This document shows, in pieces, positions 27,611-33,654 of a stretch of DNA of 45,554 nt; positions within the stretch are counted from its first letter, which is position 1, and each line of letters begins with the position of its first letter. The notes beneath the pieces were generated by a model. That model worked only from the letters and a program-made list of their open reading frames with translations. It was not told the DNA's origin and did no database searches. A program made the translations under genes and the position numbers. Origin of the DNA: Verrucomicrobiota bacterium (GTDB lineage: Bacteria > Verrucomicrobiota > Verrucomicrobiia > Chthoniobacterales > Terrimicrobiaceae); the NCBI GenBank assembly GCA_009886045.1, contig VFJO01000027.1, positions 1 to 45,554 of the forward strand, written 5' to 3'.

Positions 27611-29935
27611 TCACGCGCGACTGCCATACACGGAGTCTTTTTCGTATTTGTCTCCGTAGTAGTAGTAGTAATAACCAGCGGCTCGGCCGGTTGGGAGGCG
27701 GTTGAGGACGAAGCCGGCGACTTTGGCTTGGGCTTTGCGGAGGAGGTGCACGCTACGCTGGATGGCCTTGCGGGGTGTCTTGCCTGAATGGATCACGAGG
27801 ATGGTCTTGTCCGCATGGGGAGCCAGGATGAGGGTGTCGCTCACGGCATTCACGGGGGCGCTGTCGATGACGATGCGGTCGTAGCGTTTGAGGAGTTGGG
27901 CGAAGAGCTTGGGGATATCGGCGGAGCTGAGGAGCTCGGCGGGGTTTGGAGCTCGGCGCCCGGCTGGGAGGAGGGCCAAGTTTTCGATCTCTGTGGGAAT
28001 GATCACGCTGGCGAGCCTGCTGTTTCCGCTGAAATAATCGGTGAGTCCATTGGGCAGTGTATCCACCGCAAGAAGCGCTTTGTGTAGGCTTGGACGACGA
28101 AGATCGGCGTCGATAAGGAGCGTCTTGAGGCCTTGCTGCGCAAAGACGACGGCGGTATTCAGCGAAGTGTAAGTTTTTCCCTCTTCTGGAATGGCGCTCA
28201 CAAAGAGAAGCACGCGTCTTTCCTCCTCCGGGCCGAGCATGGAAATAGAGACGCGCAGCGTTCGATAGGCCTCGGCCAGTCCGGATTCGGGCTCTTCGAT
28301 GGTGGCGATCGGATACTTTTCGGAATCCGTGCGCGCGACAGGGGCGGGGCGGATAAGTTCCCTGATGTCTCCCAGCACACTGGATTCCTTGTTTTTGTGA
28401 GGCTTGCCGATATTACGAGCCTGCCGAAGCCGCTCAGGCAGTGCCTCACTCTCGCGTTCCAGCGTCTGTTTTAACTGGCTGAAACCCGTGAGAGTGCGGT
28501 TGGGTATTCCGACGAGAGCCGGAAGGTGCAGAAAAGACTCAGCCTCGTCCACCGAGCGGAGGGACGAGTTTAGCGAGTCGAAGAAAATGACCGCGCCGAC
28601 GGCGAAAAAAAACGCCATGATGAGGGCCATGGCGAGTGTGCGCGTGCGGTTGGGCTTGGACGGGAGGCTGGCCACAAGCGGTTCCTCGATGAGCGTGTAG
28701 GGGGCTTGGTCGACAGCTCCCGTCACGGCTGTTTCCTTCATACGCTTGATGACAGACTCGTAGAGCACGCGGTCGCTCTCGACTTCGCGCTGGAGGACAT
28801 TGAAGGGAATAGCCATTTTATTGAGGTCCAAGGCGGCGACCTCCTGTTCCTTGAGAGCAGTGGTGAGTTTTGATTCGGTCTGGCAAGCGGCTTCGTATTG
28901 ACGATTGAGGATATCTCCAGCCTTTCCCGCGCTCTCGCGGAGGGACTTCTTGAGCGACTCGGCCTTGGACAAGGCGGCGATGAATTTCGGATGCCGCTCG
29001 CCATATCGATCCTGCATGGCGGCGATTTCCATATTCGAGTCCGAAAGCTGCCGGCGGGCTTCCGCAACCTGAGGGATCGTGGCGACACTTCCGATGCGCA
29101 GAAGCTCGTCCGTGTTGTTTGCAGGAACTTTCCGCACCTGCTCGATGTCGGATTCCAAACGAAGGCGTTCGCCTTTGGCCTCTGTCGCTTTGCTGCTGAG
29201 TTCGCGCAAGCGTTCGACAGTGATGTTTTGACGCTCCTCAAGCGAGACAGCCTGGTTTTGTTCCTTGTAGCGCTGCAATTTGATTTCGGATTCCTCGAGC
29301 TTCTTTTTGAGCTTCTGGCTCTCCTCTTGCAAAAAATCCGTCGCCACGCGAGAGACAGAGAGGCGCTGGCTGAAATTTTCGCGGAGGAACTCTTTCACAA
29401 AAGATGCCGCCAGATCGCGCGCCAGCACGGGATCCTTGTCCTCGACAATAATATCGATCAAGCGCGTGCCCCGGCGCAAAACCGCGCGCACCTTACCTCG
29501 CAGCTTGTCTGCGAGTTGGATTTCCGTCGGCTTCGCACCTGGAGCCACAAAGGCGGGATTCGTCCGCAGCTTGTTCGCGTCGATCACCCGGAGCATGAGG
29601 TTGCGGCTGGTGATTGACTGCACAACAGTATTTATGAAATCCGGCGATGAGGGATTCTCCTGGCTGACTCCGTCAATATTGACAACCTGCTGCTCGCTTT
29701 GCTGAACCTGCAAGACCGCGCGCGACTCGTAGATTTTCGGCTGCCGCATGACATAGCCTGTCGCAGCCATCATAGAAACACCCACCAGCAAGGCAATGAC
29801 CCACCAACGCTGGAGCAAGAGGTGGTAGATGCGGCGAAGGTCCAGAGCCGTTCCCACCTCATCAAGCGAGGAATGGATCGTTGGCAGGACGCTTCCAAAG
29901 CGTTGTTCAGCGGGTGGACGGGACGGGTCGAGCAT
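27611..29935 (-). CDS. Wzc-type polysaccharide co-polymerase / bacterial tyrosine autokinase
   Basis: A 774-residue inner-membrane protein that controls chain length and export. Order: Wzz domain with the first membrane helix (WWVIALLVGVSMMAATGYVM, about residues 43-62), a long periplasmic coiled-coil region (about 190-390), a second helix (TLAMALIMAFFFAVGAVIFF), then the cytoplasmic BY-kinase. Kinase motifs: Walker A SAIPEEGKTYTSLN, Walker A' LLIDADLRRPSLH, Walker B IVIDSAPVNAVSD. The C-terminus holds a tyrosine cluster, six Tyr in a row, then two more within the last 13 residues, the usual autophosphorylation site. Start at ATG 29935, one base after the OPX stop; the frame extends upstream inside that gene. 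Directly upstream are the OPX protein and the beta-barrel fusion. Confidence 0.93.
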   Translation of the reverse strand: MLDPSRPPAEQRFGSVLPTIHSSLDEVGTALDLRRIYHLLLQRWWVIALLVGVSMMAATGYVMRQPKIYESRAVLQVQQSEQQVVNIDGVSQENPSSPDFINTVVQSITSRNLMLRVIDANKLRTNPAFVAPGAKPTEIQLADKLRGKVRAVLRRGTRLIDIIVEDKDPVLARDLAASFVKEFLRENFSQRLSVSRVATDFLQEESQKLKKKLEESEIKLQRYKEQNQAVSLEERQNITVERLRELSSKATEAKGERLRLESDIEQVRKVPANNTDELLRIGSVATIPQVAEARRQLSDSNMEIAAMQDRYGERHPKFIAALSKAESLKKSLRESAGKAGDILNRQYEAACQTESKLTTALKEQEVAALDLNKMAIPFNVLQREVESDRVLYESVIKRMKETAVTGAVDQAPYTLIEEPLVASLPSKPNRTRTLAMALIMAFFFAVGAVIFFDSLNSSLRSVDEAESFLHLPALVGIPNRTLTGFSQLKQTLERESEALPERLRQARNIGKPHKNKESSVLGDIRELIRPAPVARTDSEKYPIATIEEPESGLAEAYRTLRVSISMLGPEEERRVLLFVSAIPEEGKTYTSLNTAVVFAQQGLKTLLIDADLRRPSLHKALLAVDTLPNGLTDYFSGNSRLASVIIPTEIENLALLPAGRRAPNPAELLSSADIPKLFAQLLKRYDRIVIDSAPVNAVSDTLILAPHADKTILVIHSGKTPRKAIQRSVHLLRKAQAKVAGFVLNRLPTGRAAGYYYYYYGDKYEKDSVYGSRA
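27656..27673 (-). repeat. TAC microsatellite encoding the kinase tyrosine cluster
   Basis: Plus strand reads (GTA)5 then ATA; on the coding strand TAT followed by five TAC codons, giving six consecutive tyrosines. A triplet run can gain or lose units by slippage without changing frame, so the number of phosphorylatable tyrosines could vary. Confidence 0.8.
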
Positions 29936-29936
29936 T

Positions 29937-30557
29937 TTAAAAAAGGGACTCGCCAACGGAGATGACATCTCCCGCCTTGATGAGGAACGAGGTTTTTTCA
30001 TCACCGCGCGCCATGCGTTTCGCGTTGAACTTGAGCACGCGCTCTCCGCCTTCCTCGAGGCGTTTGACTGTGACATTTCCCGGGTCTGCAATCTTTGTGT
30101 ATCCACCGGCCATTCCTACGGCTTGGAGGAGTGTGATTTCGTTGCCTCCCTGGATGTCGTAGGACCCCGGTTGTTGGACTTGGCCGAGAATTGTAAAAAG
30201 TTTCTTCGCGTAGGTTCGGACGGTGAGAGTGAGTTGAGGATTGATGAGATACCCATTGCGGTACCGGGCTTTGATTAATTCAATGGCTTCGCTGATTGTG
30301 GCCCCACCGATGACTACCCCACCCACAAGCGGAAAGATGGCTTGTCCATCGCCCGAGATACGAACGACAGCATCAAGCTCGGGCTCCTGAAAAACGCGAA
30401 AGTCGAGTAAGTCATTCGGTGCCAGTTTATGTTCATTTGAAGTTTCCCCAAATGCCAGATTAGGCAAAAAAAACAAAACTCCGATCAGAATCTGAAAGGC
30501 AAAAAACTTCCAAACACGATGAGAAGAAATGAGGAAAAGAGAAAATCGGCTGGGCAT
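29937..30557 (-). CDS. Short outer-membrane polysaccharide export (OPX/Wza-like) protein
   Basis: A 206-residue periplasmic protein. An N-terminal signal sequence (hydrophobic FFAFQILIGVLFFLPNLAFG) ends without a lipobox cysteine. The Poly_export domain starts at KLAPNDLLDFRVFQEPELDAVVRISGDGQAIFPLVGGV and is followed by one SLBB domain (KLFTILGQVQQPGSYDI ... LLQAVGMAGGYTKIADP). The protein ends soon after the SLBB and lacks the C-terminal amphipathic helix that Wza uses to form its own outer-membrane pore. Short OPX proteins of this kind work with a separate beta-barrel in Myxococcus xanthus; here a beta-barrel gene lies 3 bases upstream, which fits that composite model. Confidence 0.88.
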   Translation of the reverse strand: MPSRFSLFLISSHRVWKFFAFQILIGVLFFLPNLAFGETSNEHKLAPNDLLDFRVFQEPELDAVVRISGDGQAIFPLVGGVVIGGATISEAIELIKARYRNGYLINPQLTLTVRTYAKKLFTILGQVQQPGSYDIQGGNEITLLQAVGMAGGYTKIADPGNVTVKRLEEGGERVLKFNAKRMARGDEKTSFLIKAGDVISVGESLF

Positions 30558-30560
30558 GGA

Positions 30561-33095
30561 TCAGAACTGGGCAGATAACTCTAAGCTTAATTTGTTATCA
30601 TACCAAGTATCCTGAACCAAATCAGAATAATTCGTACGATATTCATAGGCCAAGGAAGCTTTCATATATTTCAGAAAACGATAACTCATAGTCGGCCTGA
30701 AGAAAAAAAAGTTATCCACCCGGTAAGCATCGGTGGTGAGTGTATTTGCCACATAGGTATCGTTCTCATATCCCCCTGAGACCCCCAATTCAAATTTCGA
30801 CGCGAATTCCTGAGTAATCCCGATCTCTCCGCCGGTGGCGATATAGTCCTGACCTGCGATGGAGGACGATGCCTGTAAATTTCGGTACGCCACCAGACTC
30901 AAACGGGTTTTTGTAAAAAGGGAATATTCTGCCCCTAGTGAAAAAACCGAGATGATTCTTGGAGGTTCCCCACCCCCAACATACTCGTTGAATTGAACGC
31001 CACCTGTTGCGTTAACGACAGTCTTTCCCGTGAGGACATAATTCAGGCGACCATTGATGGTCTGATACCACATGTCGGGACTCTCCTGAACTTGACTCAG
31101 CCCAAAGATGCCTTCTAAGCCCAAGGATGTTTTCGGGAAAATGGAATACGCGAAGCCAGTGGTTGTCTCATAAAAGTAGGAGCTCAGATTTTCAGGATAG
31201 TAATTTGTGCGTTGGCTGATCTCGAAATCAAGCGAGGTCTTCCCGCTGTAATCGTAGTTAAGACGCAGGGCATTAAAAAACAGCGAACGATCTGTAAAAG
31301 CCCCCACCTGCCGCTCTGCCCCGCTGAGCGTCTGGTAGCGACTCTCCGCTTGGACGGCCAAGTTTTCAAAGCGATATTGCCCGAGCGCACTCGCAGACTG
31401 ATCGAACGAATTTTGGCTCGTGTAGCGGTTGAAGAAAAACCCTGTGGCCAGATATTCCAGAAGCAAATAGTTATCCTTCAAGTTACGGAAATCGCCAAAT
31501 TCCAAGGATAGTCCGGCGTTAATATTGAAAATGAAATCGCTTTTTCGATTCGAATTGGTAATGAAAATATTATCGTCGAAAGTAACTCCCGTGGTGAGCA
31601 GCGGGCGAATTCTCCAGAAGTTAGACTCCTCGTCTTTTGGCAGATCGACCCCGGGCAAACTTTCCCCATCGAGGGGCGGCACGTCATCCACATTAGGATC
31701 AGTTAACGGAGTCATTTCATCAGTCACCAAGGCATCCAACACATCCTCTCCCACATAAGTTTCGGATGGTTTCATGAGACTCAAGACTGAGTTTGTAAGG
31801 TTTTGAAGGCTTCGCAACGGAGGAAGATCCAGGGCCGGATTCGTCGTTACAGCAATTCCTGAAGCCAGCGCAGCGACTGCCAGTGCGGCAAGGATAGGAG
31901 GAAGAAGATTGCCACGCCGATAATTTTCAAATGTCCCGCTATCAAAAAACCATGAAGAATCAAACGAGCTTCTGGCAAGGGATGAGATGGACTCCCGATT
32001 GTAAAGGCTCCACCAATTGCAAAAGATGGCAAGGATATGAGCGGTTGACGCCGAGCTCTGAACGTCTCCCGTTGTAAAACCCTCCCAAGGCCAATGGACG
32101 GCACTTTCATCAAACGGGCTGAATGGGCGTGGCACCTCGCTGTGAAGACGGGTAATTCGTGTCAGCGAGAGCTTCAATGAAGTGACAAAAGCCAAAATTT
32201 CCCCATCCGAGCCTTGTAAAAAAACAACACGCCGTGGGCGACTCCATCCCGATATTTGAAGAAGAGCTTCCAGCGCTTGGTATCCGGCACCGCAGGCTTC
32301 CCAAGCCTTACTGGCGTCAAGCACACGATACAATTCTATGGCGCTTTGCGAGCCGCCCAATTGGAAAAGATAGGGAATCCGCGCGCCCTCAGCCGCATTC
32401 AGATTTTCTTCACTGGAAAAACCCGTGGTGCCACGAAAAAGAGATGGCCTCGCATCAGGAGGCAATGAGTCCAAAAATGTTTTGAGAATCCCTCCCCTCG
32501 CCTCGGATGGTTTTGATGTAAGCCGGACATCAACTCCCACGCAGAGACTCTCGCGAGCATTCCAGAGGCTCCCATAAACAAAGACCTCGCGCTTGGAAGT
32601 CTGCCCAGGTATTGGCTTCGTCGTTGCCAAGCAGTCGCAGATCCAATTCCCCTCGCAAGAAGCGCTCCACGAAGCTTGCAGTTGGCGTGCAAGCACCACC
32701 GGTGAAACTTCTTTTCCTACGATACCAAGCATTCGCCTAATGCGAATGCTGCTTGCTGCATTTTTGAAGCCCAATAAAGGCGGACTCTCATGATCCAGAT
32801 GTAAAGCTGAAATCTGAGTGTAAGCTCTCTGCCCATAAAATAGTGCGAGCATCAAAGTCCCAAAAAACTCGGTCGCGCGTAGGGAGTTTTTGTTAGAAAT
32901 GGAGGACTCTAAATCTTCACATAGGCCTCTAAAAGAAAGGTTTTTATGAATACTTTTCGCGAATCCTACAAGGCTATGCAACGGATTATCTCTTGCGACC
33001 AAATATCCAGGTGCCCGCGATAGGTTCACCTGCTTGTTTGTTTTGACTTGAAATCGGGGGAACTCTCGATGCATTCCGTCAATAAGAATTCGCAT
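30561..33095 (-). CDS. Degenerate IS1380-like transposase domain fused to an outer-membrane beta-barrel
   Basis: An uninterrupted 844-codon gene. Residues about 66-365 follow the IS1380 transposase order: a helical LRATEFFGTLMLALFYGQRAY block, WICDCLATTKPIPGQ (family: D-x-D-x-T-x-K-x-x-G-x-Q), PSLFRGTTGFSSEENL then IPYLFQL (family: R-x-D-x-G-F), ISGWSRPRRVV, and FDESAVHWPWEGFTT with NWWSLYNR near the end. The expected acidic catalytic positions appear to be L or A, T and F, so it should not transpose. Residues 397-413 are hydrophobic, 414-495 a Pro/acidic linker, and about 496-844 a beta-barrel-like stretch of alternating aromatic/polar strands ending in the outer-membrane-typical terminal Phe (LSLELSAQF). 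It opens the export module next to a short OPX protein. Domain assignment is from family recall, not a search. Start at ATG 33095 (weak AGGA upstream); ATG at codon 8 is an alternative. Confidence 0.75.
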   Translation of the reverse strand: MRILIDGMHREFPRFQVKTNKQVNLSRAPGYLVARDNPLHSLVGFAKSIHKNLSFRGLCEDLESSISNKNSLRATEFFGTLMLALFYGQRAYTQISALHLDHESPPLLGFKNAASSIRIRRMLGIVGKEVSPVVLARQLQASWSASCEGNWICDCLATTKPIPGQTSKREVFVYGSLWNARESLCVGVDVRLTSKPSEARGGILKTFLDSLPPDARPSLFRGTTGFSSEENLNAAEGARIPYLFQLGGSQSAIELYRVLDASKAWEACGAGYQALEALLQISGWSRPRRVVFLQGSDGEILAFVTSLKLSLTRITRLHSEVPRPFSPFDESAVHWPWEGFTTGDVQSSASTAHILAIFCNWWSLYNRESISSLARSSFDSSWFFDSGTFENYRRGNLLPPILAALAVAALASGIAVTTNPALDLPPLRSLQNLTNSVLSLMKPSETYVGEDVLDALVTDEMTPLTDPNVDDVPPLDGESLPGVDLPKDEESNFWRIRPLLTTGVTFDDNIFITNSNRKSDFIFNINAGLSLEFGDFRNLKDNYLLLEYLATGFFFNRYTSQNSFDQSASALGQYRFENLAVQAESRYQTLSGAERQVGAFTDRSLFFNALRLNYDYSGKTSLDFEISQRTNYYPENLSSYFYETTTGFAYSIFPKTSLGLEGIFGLSQVQESPDMWYQTINGRLNYVLTGKTVVNATGGVQFNEYVGGGEPPRIISVFSLGAEYSLFTKTRLSLVAYRNLQASSSIAGQDYIATGGEIGITQEFASKFELGVSGGYENDTYVANTLTTDAYRVDNFFFFRPTMSYRFLKYMKASLAYEYRTNYSDLVQDTWYDNKLSLELSAQF

Positions 33096-33219: not shown

Positions 33220-33654
33220 TTAGCCGAGCTTGCGTTCGACGGCTTGGAAGCCCTCAAGCTCACCGAGAAAATTAAACTGGGGAGAGAGATGGATTTGAAC
33301 TCGGTAAGTCGTCAGATCCTTGTGGTAGTTGACCATTTCCACACAGCAACTTTTGCGACTGCGGATGGCATTTCGCATCATGAGAATCGCCTCACTGGAG
33401 CTTTCAGAGCCCTGCAGAAAAGAACACGGTTTTCGGCCGCGAATTTCCTGAAATTCATAGCCGCAGAGTGAGGAAAATGCCGGATTGATCTCTATGACTC
33501 CTCCCTCCCTGTCTGTGCGAACACGCGGGAGTTCTTCCGAGATTCTTAGACGAACATTTTGAAAAATACGATTCGACACCGACAGCGCAAAATCTTTATG
33601 GGGCTTCTCCCTACCACCGGAAAGGGAATGTGTAATATCTGGAATCAGTCTCAC
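33220..33654 (-). CDS. Single-domain PAS protein (LOV-like core)
   Basis: A 144-residue protein made of one PAS domain and little else. The core shows DREGGVIEINPAFSSLCGYEFQEIRGRKP, CSFLQG, a helix ending MMRNAIRS, NYHKDLTTYRVQIHLSPQF and ELEGFQAVERKLG, the same order as LOV/PAS_9 domains. LOV photoreceptors have GxNCRFLQ with a flavin-reactive Cys; here PCSFLQG keeps the Cys but has one additional residue before it and S in place of R. No kinase, HTH or GGDEF output follows. It lies 124 bases upstream of the EPS run on the same strand, so it could act with it, but may be an independent gene. Confidence 0.75.
   Translation of the reverse strand: MRLIPDITHSLSGGREKPHKDFALSVSNRIFQNVRLRISEELPRVRTDREGGVIEINPAFSSLCGYEFQEIRGRKPCSFLQGSESSSEAILMMRNAIRSRKSCCVEMVNYHKDLTTYRVQIHLSPQFNFLGELEGFQAVERKLG

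Follow-up and report, generated by a model that had tools for sequence, protein, structure and literature searches.

The window, a stretch of 45,554 nucleotides from a Verrucomicrobiota genome, contains an 844-codon frame without internal stops that joins an IS1380-type transposase part to an EPS outer-membrane beta-barrel (Table 1). This composition had been proposed in a sequence-only reading and is now backed by family profiles, structure prediction and comparative genomics. The gene was also claimed to be the first of a 24-kb operon. On strand and spacing alone this fits: the gene opens a same-strand run with its ends at 33095 and about 9228, and 3 bp separate it from the gene that follows. 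The next gene encodes the 206-aa OPX partner, which has no outer-membrane pore domain of its own. The transposase domain is made up of an N-terminal helical part and an RNase H-like core. The AlphaFold model of the full-length protein places this domain at residues 38-378, followed by a helix at 398-418, a disordered stretch up to 491 and 18 strands at 494-843 with high pLDDT.

Table 1 Features of the fusion gene and of its two partner genes (positions in the window).
Feature	Position	Strand	Basis or remark
Whole fusion gene	30561..33095	-	844 codons and stop; orthologues L013, L014, L015
IS1380-derived transposase domain, residues about 37-368	31992..32987	-	NF033539 match, alignment with intact IS1380 transposases, AlphaFold
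First catalytic-acid site (IS1380 D-x-D-x-T), residues 154-156, D-C-L	32628..32636	-	D154 kept, second D replaced by L156
Second catalytic Asp position (IS1380 RGDxxYG), T223	32427..32429	-	Alignment
Catalytic Glu position of the YREK signature, F325	32121..32123	-	Alignment; signature from PMC2266710
Internal signal peptide, h-region and cleavage motif (LASGIA/VTT, cut at the slash), residues about 397-415, RR before	31851..31907	-	Hydropathy, helix in the model, aligned motif
Low-confidence (disordered) linker, residues 416-493, predicted periplasmic	31617..31850	-	pLDDT <50 at 411-491
18-stranded outer-membrane beta-barrel, EpsX/EpsL/BBP2_2 type, residues 494-844	30564..31616	-	Profiles, AlphaFold, Foldseek
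Short OPX partner gene (Poly_export + SLBB, 206 aa)	29937..30557	-	3 bp downstream of the fusion
Wzc-type co-polymerase / tyrosine autokinase, same locus	27611..30106	-	Profile matches

The C-terminal part matches PF10082 (BBP2_2), TIGR03016 and TIGR03014 (EpsL). EpsL/TIGR03014 and the PEP-CTERM-associated outer-membrane proteins of TIGR03016 are the best family matches of the barrel, with scores far under the curated cut-offs. Foldseek matches of the barrel were mainly 18-stranded porins (Occ) and also included the polysaccharide secretins PgaA and BcsC. In the type of export described for Myxococcus, the partner of a short OPX protein is an 18-stranded barrel (PMC9601211, PMC9603273). The locus is similar to these exporters (EpsY/EpsX, WzaX/WzpX) in that an 18-stranded barrel gene lies beside a short OPX gene (Poly_export + SLBB) and Wzc. 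While the described barrels carry an N-terminal type 1 signal peptide, the fusion barrel lacks one, and its signal is internal at 397-415, after a domain of ~390 aa. The main texts of the two papers do not mention a transposase. The window genome has a second OPX gene on another contig (G000:C106, 17874-18392; L004, L007). A barrel-like frame lies beside it (C106:18813-19235, 36% to the barrel), and similar unfused pairs are found in relatives within the genus.

Directly upstream of the fusion gene, the window has a gene for a short PAS/LOV-like protein (33220-33654, minus strand). Several of its best NCBIfam matches are blue-light photoreceptors (E about 2e-15), and its motif GRKPCSFLQG contains a candidate flavin-binding Cys. 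At this place the relatives have a FecR-like or related protein with a Pro-Thr-rich C-terminus (...PVSPS-) (L013:3-1346, L014:2-1387, L015:1-1281), and the FecR domain was confirmed by Pfam in the L013 protein. The closest homologue of this protein in the window genome is found on another contig (C211, 59% identity), which suggests a rearrangement. In the sister genus, the protein upstream of the barrel has a similar proline-rich tail.

Distribution and origin of the fusion

Among 58 genomes searched, which comprised that of the window and those of its relatives, three others of the genus contain the full fusion with all frames open: Spartobacteria bacterium AMD-G4 (G007, 60% identity to the window fusion), a MAG labelled Chthoniobacter flavus MiE-14oct19-38 (G006, 50%) and Verrucomicrobia bacterium REEB449 (G004, 44%). 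The junction is the same in each, and all four fusions directly precede the same OPX and then Wzc genes. The related genomes thus supply the comparison that had been proposed, and the claim that the frame has stayed open extends to them. Such conservation puts the frame far beyond chance. As the three named relatives are metagenome assemblies and the window genome (340 contigs) is probably one too, an assembly or binning artefact might be considered. However, the identical junction and following genes recur in four different assemblies at 44-60% identity, and we regard such an artefact as practically negligible. The OPX gene of G007 appears to be split by a frameshift (L013 about 4335; contig matches 12519-12854 and 12848-13003 in different frames), which is either real or an assembly error.

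A close OPX orthologue (at least 76%) is present in exactly the four fusion genomes out of the 16 genomes of the genus; the other 12 have only distant OPX proteins (about 42% identity or less). Barrels beside such distant OPX genes in relatives within the genus have an ordinary N-terminal signal peptide (e.g. L037, L039). The fusion would have been refuted by relatives in which the barrel gene is independent and is preceded by a distinct, decaying IS. This arrangement was checked for and is absent; all genus genomes with the locus have the fusion. The barrel-OPX-Wzc order is also found in the sister genus (three of three genomes), with an unfused barrel of 491-492 aa whose signal peptide lies within the first 55 residues. 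A proline-rich protein gene, and no IS, lies upstream of this unfused barrel. The unfused sister barrels (L016-L018) have an unusually long polar N-terminal tail, about 35 aa, ahead of the signal core, which may have eased tolerance of a further N-terminal extension.

In maximum-likelihood trees of both parts of the protein, a single branch separates the four fusions from the other sequences, with support of 100/99 for the transposase domain against seven freestanding IS1380 proteins and 100/100 for the barrel against nine unfused barrels. The barrel tree branches G004 first, then G006, then the window with G007. The tree of the transposase domain has two long fusion branches, and its internal order is not trusted. 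From the single origin found in both trees, the fusion appears to have arisen once. The fusion domains also have common changes that are absent from the seven freestanding IS1380 proteins, namely F86, A302, the loss of the KPGRP loop and the loss of a ~35-aa insertion; C153 is common to them in one alignment. The distance from the NWW motif at the transposase end to the cleavage motif is 43-56 aa in the fusions, and the distance from the start to the cleavage site is 55 aa in unfused barrels. Therefore the whole ancestral N-terminus of the barrel seems to be kept behind the transposase, and a transposase fragment was apparently joined to the front of an almost intact barrel gene, which subsequently lost its own start. 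Each of the four genomes has one copy at one orthologous locus, and the fusion has been kept vertically.

In the order (213 genomes) and a sample of the phylum (388 genomes), no other IS1380-like frame exceeded 551 aa, and a plasmid search gave a single ordinary transposase match. The search depth was one genome per species (genus 16, order 213, phylum sample 388), and absence holds for those sets only. A contig scan with two patterns returned only the three known relatives; the two patterns are short and say little on absence elsewhere.

Ancestry, active site and fold of the transposase domain

In a whole-protein search, residues 202-292 of the fusion protein matched the IS1380 transposase family NF033539 of NCBIfam with E 3.4e-8, a significant result for the profile check proposed for the N-terminal part. 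The transposase domains of all four fusions searched alone also matched NF033539 (E 3.4e-9 to 1.8e-3), with no other family below 0.1. Their scores of 35.8, 19.2, 16.9 and 27.2 bits lie under the curated cut-off of 180 bits, and an intact IS1380 of the genus also falls short of it with 149 bits. A freestanding IS1380 protein of the window genome aligned with fusion residues 37-292 (30% identity, E 2e-30) and 297-367 (35% identity, E 1.6e-9). The homology to IS1380-family transposases (NF033539; Pfam DDE_Tnp_1_4 / DDE_Tnp_1) thus spans almost the whole catalytic region, and the core of the fold is shared. In contrast to these transposases, the fusion domain lacks the second catalytic Asp, the catalytic Glu, the YREK signature, the KPGRP loop and the C-terminal ~110 aa, and the gene has no terminal repeats, is joined to a barrel and scores under the family cut-off.

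The ends of the IS1380 elements of the genus were mapped as CCTAAA...CGGCAGTTGAG, in TTAA-containing sites, and used as the query for a remnant. No IS1380 terminal inverted repeats were found flanking the fusion gene with this query (up to 6 mismatches in 19), and an IS remnant around the gene was rejected. One freestanding IS1380 of the genus (L064:1282-2950, 1669 bp) has the ends CCTAAA...TTTAGG and TTAA-containing flanks that resemble the piggyBac target site.

The catalytic motifs were compared with those of the seven freestanding IS1380 proteins. All seven have a complete YREK signature, Y-(2)-R-(3)-E-(6)-K, the motif in which IS4, a related family, has its catalytic Glu (PMC2266710), and a complete RGDxxYG motif with the second Asp; D-x-D-x-T at the first site is complete in six of the seven. 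None of the three is complete in any of the four fusions. Neither the second Asp nor the catalytic Glu is retained in any fusion; across the four, the Asp is replaced by T, G, P and S, and the Glu by F, F, C and P. The KPGRP loop is lost in all four. The sequence-only reading had all catalytic acids gone (L/A, T and F). This is right for the second and third positions (T223, F325) and only partly so for the first, at which L156 replaces one Asp of the DxD and D154, in one alignment, is kept in all four fusions. Which member of the DxD is catalytic has not been settled structurally. Its expectation that DNA is not cleaved still stands because the other two acids are lost, and this loss suffices whichever Asp of the DxD is catalytic. 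The species-specific replacements are, as far as alignment can tell, consistent with catalysis having been lost early and the active site then being less constrained.

Eleven residues assigned to the fold core are retained in four of four fusions (W151, R221, G222, W284, R288, R289, W335, G339, N360, W361, W362). A Pfam scan of the window domain alone gave zero matches, and a sequence-profile comparison of the domain with solved transposases gave only a chance match (E 1.3). The link to a solved fold therefore relies on structure comparison. The AlphaFold model of the transposase domain, made from 11 sequences, has a mean pLDDT of 75 and a pTM of 0.75. Its best solved match is the Tn5 transposase (Foldseek E 4.2e-7, Z 16.1 over 302 residues), followed by piggyBac (Foldseek E 8.9e-6, Z 12.2 over 297 residues), and the structure prediction that had been proposed as a check thus points to an RNase H-like fold of the Tn5/piggyBac type. 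Residues 43-380 of the model superpose on residues 5-431 of Tn5, including an N-terminal helical region aligned with the DNA-binding part of Tn5. As judged from the alignments and the model, the transposase domain is catalytically dead yet folded. The domain is similar to the Tn5 transposase inhibitor (PDB 1b7e) in being a truncated transposase of the same fold (Z 12.0). The inhibitor, however, is a freestanding regulator of transposition, whereas the fusion domain has no known transposition target.

Export, constraint and a possible host role

The internal segment 397-415 has the highest hydropathy of the window protein, and the corresponding segment is the only strongly hydrophobic one in all four fusions. 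A small-x-Ala cleavage motif is aligned behind it, as SGIA, SGIA, SGLA and TGIA in the fusions and as SMA or SFA in the unfused sister barrels. Between residues 321 and 427 the window gene is free of in-frame ATG, GTG and TTG codons; the core of the signal begins at 397. No usable internal start is thus present in the window, and an exported barrel could hardly be made alone. The barrel and the transposase remnant might still be separate products, with the barrel initiated at an unrecognised start or ribosome site near the signal peptide. G007 would allow this, having in-frame ATG codons 8 and 2 residues ahead of the h-region, and internal initiation just ahead of its signal peptide is possible in that species on the sequence. 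In the window, however, the nearest in-frame start before the signal is the GTG at residue 321, which lies 76 residues ahead of the h-region and has no Shine-Dalgarno match, and the nearest upstream candidates in G006 and G004 are only TTG codons, 39 and 48 residues away. We consider separate products very doubtful as an explanation of the gene.

Since the barrel depends on the frame, the open frame alone is no proof of constraint on the transposase domain. Between the window and G007, the transposase domain has a dN of 0.54 and the barrel one of 0.12; dS is saturated in the former and reaches 2.3 in the latter. Evolution of the domain runs 4-5 times faster than that of the barrel, and its identity to the window remains 41% in G007 and 35% in G006. 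Neutral simulation at 2.27 substitutions per site left about 8% identity, against the 41-42% seen. Because dS is saturated, omega is not given as a number. As alignment alone creates apparent constraint, codon-shuffled partners served as control (2dlnL 8-52), and only likelihood-ratio results above these controls were accepted. For the transposase domain, omega = 1 was rejected for window-G007 (2dlnL 104) and window-G006 (2dlnL 74), while window-G004 (2dlnL 26) was not above the shuffled controls. The dN/dS analysis proposed earlier thus supports selection in two of the three comparisons and does not show it for G004, where part of the C-terminal core is deleted and decay of the domain is possible. 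At least in the window, G007 and G006 lineages, the domain is, by these codon comparisons, under protein-level constraint.

These rates bear on the idea that the domain is mere baggage, its frame preserved for the sole reason that any stop or frameshift would cost the cell the barrel, and its sequence otherwise drifting. The faster evolution of the domain, catalytic replacements that differ by species, and the partial core loss of G004 with its constraint test not above control would all fit such drift, and without an internal start the frame is forced to stay open anyway. However, the identities to G007 and G006 and the rejection of omega = 1 well beyond the shuffled controls do not fit it, and Trp, Gly and Arg of the core are selectively retained in all four fusions. 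A free-rider should also shrink by in-frame deletion, and yet the 330-365 aa up to NWW persist in each of the four. We find baggage improbable. The remnant in decay, one of the roles suggested by the sequence-only reading, is likewise disfavoured by the single origin, the occurrence in four species and the protein-level constraint in the two closest pairs.

The dead domain might instead still bind DNA, e.g. its own promoter, and as an autoregulator couple transcription of the operon to synthesis or export of the barrel, either tethered to the membrane or released. The N-terminal helical region that aligns with the DNA-binding part of Tn5 is kept, R288, R289 and R221 are retained in all four fusions, and the fusion is the first gene of its same-strand run. 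However, conserved basic positions of IS1380 are still basic in only 38 of 92 cells, compared with 238 of 372 for hydrophobic or glycine positions, no repeat like an IS1380 end lies near the gene, and the net charge of the domain ranges from -3 to +16 across the four fusions and is not uniformly basic. We regard an autoregulator as unlikely, though it is to be kept in mind. The retained fold and the reduced basic residues lean, though only weakly, towards protein contact or targeting over sequence-specific DNA binding, and they do not rule the latter out. Between a DNA-binding autoregulator and a cytoplasmic tether the evidence does not decide.

The gene meets the traits of a domesticated transposase: it is single-copy and vertically kept, has no terminal repeats and is under purifying selection (window against G007 and G006). 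A host function is inferred. We believe, with somewhat more confidence than doubt, that the fusion is a domesticated, nuclease-dead transposase that stays on the cytoplasmic side while an internal signal peptide directs export of the barrel; where the parts reside, and that the precursor is exported and cleaved, is inferred without experiment. In the proposed sequence of events, the ancestral barrel gene of a short-OPX/beta-barrel exporter would have gained, in frame and upstream, a C-terminally truncated IS1380 gene in an ancestor of part of the genus. With the loss of the barrel's own start codon, one precursor would be made from the transposase start. The transposase domain presumably remains cytoplasmic. 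What was once the N-terminal signal peptide has become internal and would direct the rest of the protein through Sec. Signal peptidase probably cuts near A415, and the barrel would then reach the outer membrane and pair with the OPX protein. Cleavage and partner binding are both inferred. As the domain is kept folded without its active site, the host may have recruited it to act on the cytoplasmic side of the inner membrane. It would most likely work by contacting proteins of the export or assembly machinery, or in the targeting and dosage of the precursor, rather than as a DNA-cutting enzyme. More tentatively, and with slightly more doubt than confidence, we suggest a precursor of split fate, which would yield a membrane-tethered cytoplasmic regulator or scaffold with the transposase fold and a cleaved outer-membrane pore of the same exporter at a fixed 1:1 ratio.

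Host-transposase fusions are well known in eukaryotes. In the literature searched, we found neither a transposase-barrel fusion nor any transposase linked to an outer-membrane protein. SETMAR-type fusions (PMC6326780) are similar in that a host gene captured a transposase domain in frame and the domain was domesticated. The present fusion differs from them in that it is bacterial, sits on an exported membrane protein, has lost its active site in all members and has not been shown to bind DNA.

The single origin, the unfused sister orthologues as the state before the fusion and a dead site within a kept fold make the steps of a bacterial domestication traceable. The arrangement further suggests that a folded cytoplasmic domain of about 390 residues at the front need not keep an outer-membrane protein from being exported. 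The enzyme of a jumping gene appears, in this small group of Verrucomicrobiota, to have been taken over as the cytoplasmic part of an export-machine gene.
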